The notes under the pieces were generated by a model. That model was not told the DNA's origin and did not search any database. It worked only from the letters and a program-made list of their open reading frames with translations. From NCBI RefSeq assembly GCF_004297405.1, contig NZ_SCVC01000030.1:248001-312000 (forward strand): a stretch of DNA of 64,000 nucleotides, given 5' to 3'. Position 1 is the stretch's first letter; every line of letters begins with the position of its first letter. Source of the DNA: Reyranella sp. (GTDB lineage Bacteria; Pseudomonadota; Alphaproteobacteria; Reyranellales; Reyranellaceae). Of the stretch, positions 9,773 to 15,925 are shown piece after piece. The translations under genes were made by a program, and so were the position numbers.

Positions 9773-10330
9773 TCAGCCCTTGTTCCGTTGCGGCACCATG
9801 CAGAAGCCCTGCGCTTCGACGCCCAGCGTCGGATTGAACTTCGATCGGAAGTTCTCCATCGCAATCGCGGCGGTCAGCTCCACCACCTGCGCTTCGGTGA
9901 AGTGCTTGCGCAGTTCGGCGAAGAACGCGTCATCGACCTGCTGGTCGGTGTAGGTGATGCGCTCGGCATACTCCAGTGCCAGCCGTTCACTCGGACTGAA
10001 CAGCTTGCTGTCGCGCCAGTTCAGCACCTCTGCGACCTTCTCCAATCCGCCTTCGCTTTCCGTCACACGGACGGAATTGATGTCTATTCAAAAGGGACAG
10101 CCGTTGATCGACGCCACGCGCAGGTAGATCAGTGGCGGCAGGTCCTTCGGCAACTGACCCGACTGCTCGATCGAGGCGCCCAGCATCTTGGCGGCACGCA
10201 AGATCGGCGGGCAATGCGCCAATACCTTCGTTGGATTCAAGAGATCACCGAAGATCTCGCGCTCCTTGTCGAACACGGCCTTCAAGGTCGGATCATCACC
10301 ATCTTCCTCGATCTCACTGACGCGGGGCAT
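9773..10330 (-). CDS. Carboxymuconolactone decarboxylase/AhpD-like protein, probable selenoprotein (CxxU)
   Basis: Two open stretches, 10330-10091 and 10087-9773, are in the same frame and separated only by a TGA at 10090-10088. Read through, they give a 185-residue protein. The context is RVASINGCPF-[TGA]-IDINS, so the TGA replaces the second cysteine of the redox CxxC motif (Cys78, Sec81) of this peroxidase-related family. The hairpin at 10076-10058 fits a bacterial SECIS element. AhpD-like selenoproteins with CxxU are known. The downstream half (FSPSERLALEYAERIT and the helical remainder) is intact and family-like, which argues against decay. Annotation pipelines would split it into two genes. 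The remaining alternative is a recent nonsense mutation; no sel genes lie in this window. Confidence 0.82.
10058..10076 (-). promoter_or_regulatory. Candidate bacterial SECIS hairpin
   Basis: On the minus strand, 11 bases after the TGA, TTCCGTC and GACGGAA form a perfect 7-bp stem closing a five-base loop, CGTGT. The loop begins 18 bases after the TGA and has G at its second position. This satisfies the usual bacterial SECIS pattern (loop 16-37 bases from UGA, small apical loop with G in the first two positions). Confidence 0.75.
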
Positions 10331-10516
10331 CGGACGCTCCTCAAGTTGTCGGGGACGGCGACCCTACGCCGGCTTCTCTGATTCATCCAGTTGGAGGCCC
10401 CGCTGTGGCCATTCGGTGACTCGGACGGCGCGCGATGGCATTTGCCGGTCCGCGGTTCAAGATAGGCGCCAACACTCAACGCAAACGTTGACCACGTCCG
10501 AAGAGAGGAACGCGCC

Positions 10517-11728
10517 ATGGCAATCTACGGCGACACGTCGGGTATCCTTCGTCATCGCGCACAGGGTGGCGATCAGAATATCGTGCTCGAGGGCAGCGTC
10601 GGTGGAACCGCCTATGGCGATGCCGGTCAGATGCTCAACAAGAGCCGGGGTGGCGACGACACGCTGACCGGCGGCGCCTTTGCCACCAACATCCTCTTCG
10701 GCGATGCCAATACGATGCACGATCGCTCCCAGGGCGGGAACGACACGCTGATCGGGAGCAGCCGCAACGACATCCTCTATGGCGACGCCTACGGCCTCTA
10801 CAATCACGCAAGCGGCGGCGACGACATGCTGGTGATGGGCGGGCCGCAGGCACATCTGTTCGGCGATGCCTACGACATGTTCGGCCATTCTTCCGGTGGC
10901 GACGACACGCTGATCGGCAGACCCGACCAGATCGAGATCGGCATCGGGCCGCCCGGCTTTCTCCTCGGTGATGCGTTCAACATGTATGGCCAGACTCAGG
11001 GCGGCAACGACACGCTGAGCGACACCGCCGTCGCAAGCGGCGACGCCAACAGCATGTTCGATCGCGCCCGGGGCGGCGACGATACGCTGACCGGCGGCAA
11101 CGGCCGCGCCAACAATCTGATCGGCGATGCCAACCACATGTCCGACCGCACTGTCGGCGGCGACGACACGATCACCGGCGGCAACGCTGCTGTGGAGACC
11201 CTCTCGGGCGATGCCGAGGACATGTCCGGCCGGGCGCGCGGTGGCAACGATCACCTGACGAGTGAGGCCTCGATCGGCGGGACCCTCTACGGCGATGCCC
11301 GGATCATGAGCGATCGCACGGTCGGTGGCGACGATGTGCTGACGGCGAGCGGCTCCAACAACCGCCTTTACGGTGACGCCCAGACGCTCGACGGCAAGAG
11401 CCGCGGTGGCGACGACACGCTGATCAGCGGACGTGGAAGCGACCACATGTGGGGTGATGCCGCCGTCGTGGAGGCCGGGGCGCACACCGGCGCCGATGCG
11501 TTCGTCTTCGCGCCGGGCGGCGGCCACGACGACATCAACGATTTCCGTCAATGCGACGGCGACCGTATCGATGTCAGTGCCTACGGCTTTGCGGGCCTTG
11601 AAGACATGACGATCACGACCGACGGCAGCGACACCACCATCGCGTTCGACGCGACCTCCAGCGTCGTCCTGGTCGGCTTCGCCGATTCCGAGTCGTTGCA
11701 CGCGTCGGACTTCATCCTTTTCGCCTGA
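10517..11728 (+). CDS. RTX-like calcium-binding repeat protein, probable type I secretion substrate
   Basis: The 403-residue protein is almost entirely built from about eleven units of 24-35 residues. Each begins GDA, followed by about ten residues, then GGDDTL or GGNDTL. The acidic glycine-rich loops resemble haemolysin-type calcium-binding repeats, though the spacing is longer than the nine-residue RTX unit. The C-terminus (DAFVFAPGGGHDDINDF, then DRIDVSAYGF and a strand-rich end) is typical of RTX proteins exported by type I secretion. There is no N-terminal signal and no transporter gene nearby. GAGG precedes the ATG. No catalytic domain is seen. Confidence 0.85.
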   Translation: MAIYGDTSGILRHRAQGGDQNIVLEGSVGGTAYGDAGQMLNKSRGGDDTLTGGAFATNILFGDANTMHDRSQGGNDTLIGSSRNDILYGDAYGLYNHASGGDDMLVMGGPQAHLFGDAYDMFGHSSGGDDTLIGRPDQIEIGIGPPGFLLGDAFNMYGQTQGGNDTLSDTAVASGDANSMFDRARGGDDTLTGGNGRANNLIGDANHMSDRTVGGDDTITGGNAAVETLSGDAEDMSGRARGGNDHLTSEASIGGTLYGDARIMSDRTVGGDDVLTASGSNNRLYGDAQTLDGKSRGGDDTLISGRGSDHMWGDAAVVEAGAHTGADAFVFAPGGGHDDINDFRQCDGDRIDVSAYGFAGLEDMTITTDGSDTTIAFDATSSVVLVGFADSESLHASDFILFA

Positions 11729-12978: not shown

Positions 12979-14562
12979 TTAGAAGCCCAGCACCTTCGCC
13001 TGGACAACGCCTTCGACCGCACTGATGCTGCCGATCAGGTCCTTCGAGATCGGCTGGTCGACCTGGACCAGCGCGATGGCCGATCCGCCCGGCTTGTCGC
13101 GGCCGAGATGGAAGGTCGCGATGTTGACGTTGTTTTCGCCCAGGATCGTGCCCAACCGACCGATGAAGCCCGGCTTGTCGTCGTTGGTGATGTAGAGCAT
13201 GTGCGGGGCGAACTCGGCCTCGATCTCCATGCCCTTGATCTCGACGATGCGCGGATGCTTGCCGCCGAACAGCGTACCCGTCACCGAGCGCGTGTACTTC
13301 TCGGTGGTAACCGAGAGGCGGATCAGCGAGTTGTAGTCGCTGTCGCGCTCGTGCTTGACCTCGGCCACTTCGATCCCGCGTTCGCGGGCGATCACCGGCG
13401 CGTTGACCATGTTCACCGTGTCGAGCTGCGGGCGCAGCACCCCCATCAGCGCCACCTGGGAGAGCGGCTTGATGTTGAGCGCCGCCACCTGGCCTTCGTA
13501 CTCGATCGACACGGCCTTGATGTCGGTGTCGGTGAGCTGGCCCGCGAACGAGCCCAGCTTCTCGGCGAGGTCGAGGAACGGCGCCAGCTTGGGCGCATCC
13601 TCGGCCGAGACGTTCGGCATGTTGAGCGAGTTGGTGATGGCGCCGGTCAGCAGATAGTCGGCCATCTGCTCGGCGACCTGCAGCGCCACGTTCTCCTGCG
13701 CTTCCACCGTCGAGGCGCCGAGATGCGGCGTGCAGACGAGGTTGGGCGTGCCGAACAGCACGTTCTGCTTGGCCGGCTCCTCGACGAAGACGTCGAAGCC
13801 CGCACCGGCGATGTGGCCGGAAACCAGCAGGTCGCGCACCGCCAGCTCGTCGACCAGTCCGCCGCGCGCGCAGTTCACGATGCGCACGCCCTTCTTGGTC
13901 TTCATCAGGTTGGCGCGGCTCAGGATGTTCTTGGTCTGCTCGGTGAGCGGCGTGTGCACGGTGATGAAGTCCGCACGCGCCAGCACCTGGTCGAGCGTCG
14001 CTTTCTCGACGCCGAGCTCCGTGGCGCGCTGGTCGCTCAGGAACGGGTCGTAGGCCACGACGCGCATCTTGAGGCCAATCGCGCGCTCGGCCACGATCGA
14101 GCCGATGTTGCCGCACCCGATCAGGCCCAGCGTCTTGAAGCTGAGCTCGGTGCCCATGAAGCGGTTCTTCTCCCACTTGCCGGCCTGGGTCGAGGTGTTG
14201 GCATCGGGCACCTGACGGGCGACCGCGAACATCAGCGCGATGGCGTGCTCGGCCGTGGTGATGGCATTACCGAACGGCGTGTTCATCACCACGACGCCGT
14301 TGGCGGTGGCGGCCTTGATGTCGACATTGTCGACGCCGATGCCGGCGCGGCCCACGACCTTGAGCTGCTTGGCTTCCGCCAGCACCTCGGCCGTGACCTT
14401 GGTCGCGGACCGGATGGCGAGGCCGTGATAGTTGCCGATGATGGCGCGCAGTTCGGCCGGCTTCAGGCCCGGCTTGAAATCGACGTCGCAGCCGCGCTCG
14501 GAGAAGATCTGGACAGCGCGCTGGGACAGCTCGTCGGAAATGAGAACTTTAGGCTTGGCCAT
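12979..14562 (-). CDS. serA: D-3-phosphoglycerate dehydrogenase
   Basis: SerA oxidises 3-phosphoglycerate with NAD as the first step of serine synthesis. The 527-aa length is the long form. The nucleotide site LGLIGCGNIGSIVAERAIGL, the NCARGGLVDE loop, VEEPAKQNVLF and the catalytic histidine in TPHLGAST are present. After residue 320 come an intervening domain and a C-terminal ACT domain (IEAEFAPHMLYITNDDKPGF then IGRLGTILGENNVNIATFHL), which usually binds serine. serC lies 79 bases upstream on the same strand with a palindromic repeat between them, so the two likely form one transcription unit. Confidence 0.97.
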   Translation of the reverse strand: MAKPKVLISDELSQRAVQIFSERGCDVDFKPGLKPAELRAIIGNYHGLAIRSATKVTAEVLAEAKQLKVVGRAGIGVDNVDIKAATANGVVVMNTPFGNAITTAEHAIALMFAVARQVPDANTSTQAGKWEKNRFMGTELSFKTLGLIGCGNIGSIVAERAIGLKMRVVAYDPFLSDQRATELGVEKATLDQVLARADFITVHTPLTEQTKNILSRANLMKTKKGVRIVNCARGGLVDELAVRDLLVSGHIAGAGFDVFVEEPAKQNVLFGTPNLVCTPHLGASTVEAQENVALQVAEQMADYLLTGAITNSLNMPNVSAEDAPKLAPFLDLAEKLGSFAGQLTDTDIKAVSIEYEGQVAALNIKPLSQVALMGVLRPQLDTVNMVNAPVIARERGIEVAEVKHERDSDYNSLIRLSVTTEKYTRSVTGTLFGGKHPRIVEIKGMEIEAEFAPHMLYITNDDKPGFIGRLGTILGENNVNIATFHLGRDKPGGSAIALVQVDQPISKDLIGSISAVEGVVQAKVLGF

Positions 14563-14641: not shown

Positions 14642-15814
14642 CTAGGCCGCAGCCTTGCCGAACTCGCGCTCGATCTCGCCATAGGCCCAGTCGAGCCACG
14701 GCAGCAGGGCTTCGAGGTCGCTCTTCTCGACCGTGGCGCCGCACCAGATGCGCAGGCCCGGCGGGGCGTCGCGGTAGGAGCCGACGTCGTAACCCGCCTT
14801 CTCGGTTTCGAGCAGGTCGGCCATCTTCTTGGCCGCCGCCGCCTGCTTGTCGGCCGGCAGCGCGGTGAACCACGGCGCGGTGATGACGAGGCAGACCGAG
14901 GTGTTGGAACGCACGGCCTTGTCGGCCGCGAGGAAGGCGATCCACTTGCGATCGGCCACGAACTTCTCGAGCACGCCGAGGTTCGCCTCGGAGCGCGCCA
15001 TCAGGCCCTTCAACCCACCGGCGCTCTCGCCCCAGCGCAGGCCGTCAATCGCGTCCTCGACGCAGAGCATCGACGGCGTGTTGATCGTCTCGCCCTTGAA
15101 GATGCCTTCGGAAAACTTGCCGCCCGAGGTCAGGCGGAAGATCTTCGGCAGCGGCCAAGCCGGCGTGTAGCTCTCCAGGCGCTGGATCGCGCGCGGACTC
15201 AGCACGAGCATGCCGTGCGCGCCCTCGCCGCCCATCACCTTCTGCCAGGACCAGGTCACGACATCGAGCTTCTGCCACGGCAGGTCCATGGCGAAGACGG
15301 CCGAGGTCGCGTCGCAGATCGCGAGACCTTCGCGGTCGTCGGCGATCCAGTCGCCGTTCGGCACCTTCACACCGGAGGTCGTACCGTTCCAGGTGAAGAC
15401 GACATCGTGCGTCCAGTCGACCGCCTTGAGATCGGCGATCTGGCCGTAGGGCGCCTTCAAGGTGCGGGTGTCCTTGAGCTTGAGCTGCTTCACCACGTCG
15501 GTGACCCAACCCTCGCCGAAGCTTTCCCAGGTCAGCATGTCGACGGGCCGCGCGCCGAGCAGCGACCACAGCGCCATCTCGACCGCGCCGGTATCCGACG
15601 CCGGCACGATGCCGATGCGATAGTCCGCCGGAATGCCCAGTACGCTGCGCGTGCGATCGACCGCTTCGACAATCTTCTTCTTGCCGAGCTTGGATCGGTG
15701 GGACCGCCCCGTGGCGGCATCTTTGAGAGCTTCGGGCGTCCAGCCAGGACGCTTGGCGCAGGGTCCGGATGAAAAATCGGGACGCGCCGGACGCATGTTC
15801 GGCTTAGTCATCAT
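14642..15814 (-). CDS. serC: Phosphoserine transaminase
   Basis: SerC makes O-phosphoserine from 3-phosphohydroxypyruvate and glutamate using PLP. The 390-residue product is of the alphaproteobacterial/archaeal subtype. It shows the family start [15 protein letters not shown], the substrate segment [19 protein letters not shown], and the PLP lysine region [19 protein letters not shown]. The ATG-ATG at 15814/15811 follows GGGAGAGG; a longer in-frame reading to 15916 lacks support. It heads the serC-serA unit. Confidence 0.96.
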
Positions 15815-15925
15815 AACCTCTCCCTTACAGAAGAGCTGCACTCCGGTGGGGGAGCGTGGCCCGGCGCCGATATACGGGGAGAGGCGCGTGACGTCAATGT
15901 GGGGAGATTGTCGCAAGCTGGATTA

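Follow-up and report, generated by a model that had tools for sequence, protein, structure and literature searches.

CxxU selenoproteins of the AhpD-like kind have been known since 2005, when 27 sequences of COG2128 were described from Sargasso Sea data (PMC1088965). The GOS survey of 2008 listed 299 sequences as 'AhpD-like 1' (PMC2398784), and the group appears in reviews of 2022 and 2026 (PMC9312934, PMC13188914). The sequence-only reading of the DNA analyzed here was thus correct in treating AhpD-like CxxU selenoproteins as already known (PMC1088965, PMC2398784, PMC9312934). The gene considered here lies in a window from Reyranella sp., that is, the whole stretch of 64,000 nucleotides that was analyzed. 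Its predicted product shares with the COG2128/YciW type the CMD/AhpD domain, a selenocysteine (Sec) in place of the second Cys of CxxC, a closely following hairpin with a G in the loop, and widespread Cys homologues. It differs from that type, for which the published group was compared by description only, in a Sec that is fixed family-wide and in the motif CPFU[I/M]DxN.

Among the curated models, NCBIfam NF053654 ('YciW-related (seleno)protein') gave the best score, with a full-length alignment over positions 1-175 of 179, and it was matched by all 14 aligned orthologues at E <= 0.001. The Reyranella protein scored 126.3 bits against a cut-off of 310; by the curators' rule it is therefore not a member, and the Reyranella clade is probably a sister group of NF053654. 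Since this score is far below the nearest NCBIfam cut-off, automatic annotation would probably split the gene. The model for peroxidase-related enzymes, TIGR01926, scored 45.5 bits (cut-off 81.8). A literature search on Reyranella with selenocysteine returned nothing relevant. What is new is a subclade with Sec fixed throughout the family, which none of the models tested names.

Gene structure, fold and likely activity

The features of the locus, in window coordinates, are the following.

9773..10330, minus strand: predicted selenoprotein gene of the AhpD/CMD family with 185 codons, Sec81 among them, and the terminal TGA (read-through translation, PF02627 match, 69 distinct orthologous CDS)
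10088..10090, minus strand: in-frame TGA, codon 81, predicted to be read as Sec, second position of CxxU (TGA in 84/84 orthologues; Cys in remoter homologues)
10097..10099, minus strand: Cys78 of the CPFU motif, the probable resolving residue (encoded by TGC or TGT in every orthologue)
10058..10076, minus strand: SECIS hairpin with stem TTCCGTC/GACGGAA and loop CGTGT at 10069-10065 (fold, covariation, best of 6,210 placements, loop Arg codon)
10337..10342, minus strand: GAGGAG, a probable ribosome-binding site 6 nt before the ATG at 10330 (read directly from the sequence)

From the ATG at 10330-10328, 80 codons lead to the TGA at 10090-10088; another 104 open codons follow before the TGA at 9775-9773. 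The earlier description of two open stretches in one frame, split by this TGA, was exact in coordinates and frame, and the TGA indeed falls on the second cysteine of the family redox motif, C78-P-F-Sec81 (NGC78-P-F-U81 in its context). Standard translation, as had been expected of standard annotation, yields two fragments in the ORF list, 10330-10088 (80 aa) and 10066-9773 (97 aa). When Sec was entered as Cys, the product matched PF02627 (CMD) with 34.7 bits against a cut-off of 23 over residues 48-123, so the domain covers the TGA codon. A genome-wide search with PF02627 found 20 places, and the selenoprotein gene was the only one with an internal stop. A search for promoter and terminator consensus sequences gave none.

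Within the window, serA and the serC-like gene preceding it (12979-14562 and 14642-15916) lie upstream; a LuxR-type gene and a repeat-rich ORF separate serA from the selenoprotein gene. A divergent ORF at 10517-11728 carries repeated GGDDTL/GDA units that resemble calcium-binding RTX-type repeats. Of 66 loci flanked by 1 kb or more, 33 have serA upstream on the same strand. Since serA is present in about half of the loci and at a distance of 95 nt to 3 kb, its position was taken as synteny and not as an operon. The downstream zinc alcohol dehydrogenase was also rejected as an operon partner, since it neighbors the gene in three other loci only, which belong to the genome itself and to its two closest relatives.

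The AlphaFold model, built from 14 orthologues, had a mean pLDDT of 74, and every ten-residue block within 51-160 exceeded 80. The model is all-helical, and the CxxU lies at the start of helix 79-90. Foldseek assigned a probability of 1.00 to PA0269/AhpD, Atu0492, Bmp8, and peroxidase-related proteins, and the profile search agreed. Mycobacterium tuberculosis AhpD and the PA0269-type CMD proteins (7xw1, 2ijc, 2gmy) share the helical fold and the CxxC/CxxU at a helix start. The Reyranella protein differs from them in having Sec for Cys, the extra conserved Cys40 and Cys177 (both invariant in the 14 aligned orthologues), and Asn85 (CPFUIDIN) where they carry His after CxxC; Asn likewise stands at this position in the near Cys homologues of the same clade. 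In classical AhpD, the second Cys of CxxC is the peroxidatic Cys. The CxxCxxxH pattern of classical AhpD, with its catalytic His, is thus absent from the Reyranella protein, and with Asn85 in place of this His, peroxidase activity is not to be assumed.

Judged from the sequence, thiol/selenol redox chemistry by the Cys78-Sec81 pair is most likely, and a general role as thiol peroxidase or reductase is somewhat favored. The default substrate, by family, would be a peroxide or a disulfide. Sec81 would attack the oxidized substrate, and Cys78 would then resolve the selenenylsulfide. We consider it quite unlikely that this Sec-fixed subfamily, near-universal in Reyranellaceae, has an indispensable Sec that catalyzes a non-peroxide reaction, such as a deiodinase-like reductive dehalogenation. 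Another proposal, which we regard as very unlikely, is a Sec-dependent reductive dehalogenase remotely related to the debrominase Bmp8 and chemically akin to the Sec-containing iodothyronine deiodinases. Among relatives of solved structure, Bmp8 (6ohi, 6ohj) is one of the nearest in sequence (E 9e-15) and in fold; it is similar in length, and its CxxC aligns with C78/U81. However, the identity to Bmp8 is just ~25%, Bmp8 has Cys and not Sec, and the debromination of tetrabromopyrrole is an activity of Bmp8, to which the Reyranella protein bears a remote likeness in sequence and fold. Moreover, the first hits were PA0269/AhpD, the family members are mostly uncharacterized or named AhpD, and no genes for halogenated compounds tie in; synteny is limited to serA and a transporter receptor.

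The downstream hairpin and the selenocysteine machinery

The hairpin noted earlier is present as described (TTCCGTC-CGTGT-GACGGAA, 10076-10058): it starts 11 nt past the TGA and has a stem of 7 bp and a G-containing loop of 5 nt. Its folding energy was not exceptional against shuffles (z -0.92), and covariation was therefore used instead. Over 28 distinct sequences, 96.9% of cells were paired, with double changes in five of the seven pairs. Covariation as high was reached in 0 of 500 shuffles, and six slid versions were also nowhere near. A scan along the gene of every 6-7-bp stem with a loop of 3-8 (6,210 placements) ranked the site hairpin best; compensatory cells numbered 62-67 at the site and its shifted versions, which alone were rich in them, and 7 at the next best placement. 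The suggested check of hairpin conservation thus returned covariation beyond the 500 shuffles and a near-constant xGU loop.

The stem variants were TTCCGTC/GACGGAA, TTCCAGC/GCTGGAA, TTCCGCC/GGTGGAA, and TTCCGCG/CGCGGAA, around a loop of CGTGT or CGTGC, which was replaced by AGTTT, AGTCT, GGTCT, or CGGGC in four sequences. Two genera (g3 and g5) have GCATCA-CGTG-TGATGC instead, which we read as the register moved by one base. The loop Arg codon was CGT in 64 of the 65 sequences bearing Arg there, while CGT makes up ~10% of the other Arg codons. The most conserved synonymous sites of the gene were those of codons +3 to +10. A search of Rfam with the hairpin gave no match, as expected for short SECIS elements.

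The genome (6.46 Mb, 98.8% complete; closest named relative Reyranella massiliensis) was searched for selA, selB, selD, and selC, and all were present. The selA (559 bits), selB (461 bits), and tRNA-Sec (anticodon TCA) genes lie within 5 kb on contig C44, and selD is on C30. We also read an ORF preceding selA/selB/tRNA-Sec on C44 as FdhE-like. A Sel1-repeat-like ORF was observed between selA and selB (L124, 3992-4801). The formate dehydrogenase alpha gene, fdhA (L154), has its own in-frame TGA (at 2086, context U-HGPTVASL), with the selA-selB-selC cluster just downstream; it is the expected second selenoprotein of the genome. The sequence GGCCA-GTCT-TGGCC after the fdhA TGA is likely its hairpin, and this putative element and the hairpin of the AhpD-like gene have a G-U in the loop in common.

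In other systems, a conserved hairpin following a stop codon may promote read-through. A programmed read-through of the TGA by a near-cognate tRNA (e.g., Trp) rather than Sec would draw on this, yet we find it extremely unlikely. Residue 81 was Cys or Sec only across 59 homologues, which answers the proposed alignment check, and the homologues without Sec carry Cys, never Trp or Arg. The genome also encodes all of the Sec machinery together with a Sec-type fdhA, and the xGU loop motif is common to the likely fdhA hairpin (GTCT).

By comparison, the Sec reading of codon 81 is close to certain, and Sec is almost certainly inserted there, as predicted from these sequences. SelB-GTP-Sec-tRNA(Sec) would bind the hairpin right after the UGA, and Sec would be delivered at codon 81 instead of termination. 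The resulting single protein of 185 residues would be all-helical and AhpD-like, with Cys78 and Sec81 as its CxxU redox pair. The account as a whole, that is, one 185-residue CxxU selenoprotein directed by a SECIS, with an AhpD-like fold and a Cys78-Sec81 redox pair, is held with high confidence.

Conservation of the TGA codon and exchange of Sec and Cys

The ortholog search covered 76 genomes of the order, 75 of the family and 1 of another family. As a result, 69 full-length orthologous loci were found in 68 of the 75 family genomes. Fifteen loci from a second collection, largely of the same genomes, were added, giving 84 sequences with 69 distinct CDS. Codon 81 was TGA in 84/84 sequences (69/69 distinct CDS), down to 60% identity, and codon 78 encoded Cys in every one; no Cys revertant at codon 81 occurred among the 69 distinct orthologous genes. 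A sequencing error at the TGA is excluded, since the codon is present in every orthologue, including those in the single-contig assemblies G013/NZ_HE997181, G049, and G052. The median pairwise dN/dS was ~0.19 upstream of the TGA and ~0.27 downstream, so both halves are maintained by purifying selection. Decayed downstream halves were not seen in the homologues, and the downstream length was intact. A pseudogene, in which a point mutation to TGA truncates the gene and leaves the downstream half dead, would fit the two fragments of standard translation, but it is already refuted by the TGA conserved in all 69 distinct CDS and in single-contig assemblies, together with the conserved downstream frame, and has next to no probability.

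The earlier proposal of a probable selenoprotein is therefore supported: its three named grounds for rejection were checked, and the genome has selA/selB/selC, the TGA is genuine, and the downstream halves are intact.

The TGA gene was seen once in another family (G131, hairpin TTCCATC-CGTGT-GATGGAA), in a genome with selB and tRNA-Sec. G001, which alone represents the order's other family, was without the gene, without selA, and without selB over the cut-off. A metagenome-assembled genome (G024; L043/L110) has kept the TGA and is missing the 18 codons right after it, the hairpin among them; either misassembly or decay of the gene may explain this copy. Among the order's 76 genomes, 68 gave a selA match over the cut-off. 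Five genomes have the TGA gene and no selA match, or a weak fragment far below the cut-off. Both selB and tRNA-Sec are present in three of them (G027, G051, and G006), and a fourth (G042) has tRNA-Sec and an adjoining C-terminal piece of selB. The fifth (G017, 89% complete) had no selA, selB, or tRNA-Sec over the cut-off. As four of the five have selB and/or tRNA-Sec, the selA gaps look like assembly loss.

In the tree, the Sec clade of Reyranellaceae was separate from a Cys clade with the motif CxxC[V/I]D[I/L]N (support 88/88), and at least three changes between Sec and Cys were counted over all homologues. A second AhpD-like paralogue, found in a few Reyranella relatives (genomes G025, G046, and G063), alternates between the two residues, with Sec in L118 and L119 and Cys in L123. 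The Sec copies have the hairpin GCTGCC-GTG-GGCAGC; the Cys copy has GCCGCC-AAG-GGCAGC, which lacks the loop GU and one pair of the stem. This single case fits relaxed selection on the hairpin after Cys replaced Sec, with the direction of change being assumed. A third AhpD-like type with an in-frame TGA, GC[KA][YH]UISHN (L179, L180, and L181 in G176 and G281), was observed in a different family of Alphaproteobacteria, where one genome has two copies.

Implications for Reyranella

Selenoproteins are routinely split by annotation, and the present one, which extends through a family, would probably be missed even by the NCBI selenoprotein models. The 69 distinct genes provide a large orthologue set for reading bacterial SECIS elements by covariation, and the paralogue that alternates between Sec and Cys, with a decayed hairpin in the Cys copy, is also on offer. 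For the organism, selenium use in Reyranella would go beyond formate dehydrogenase.
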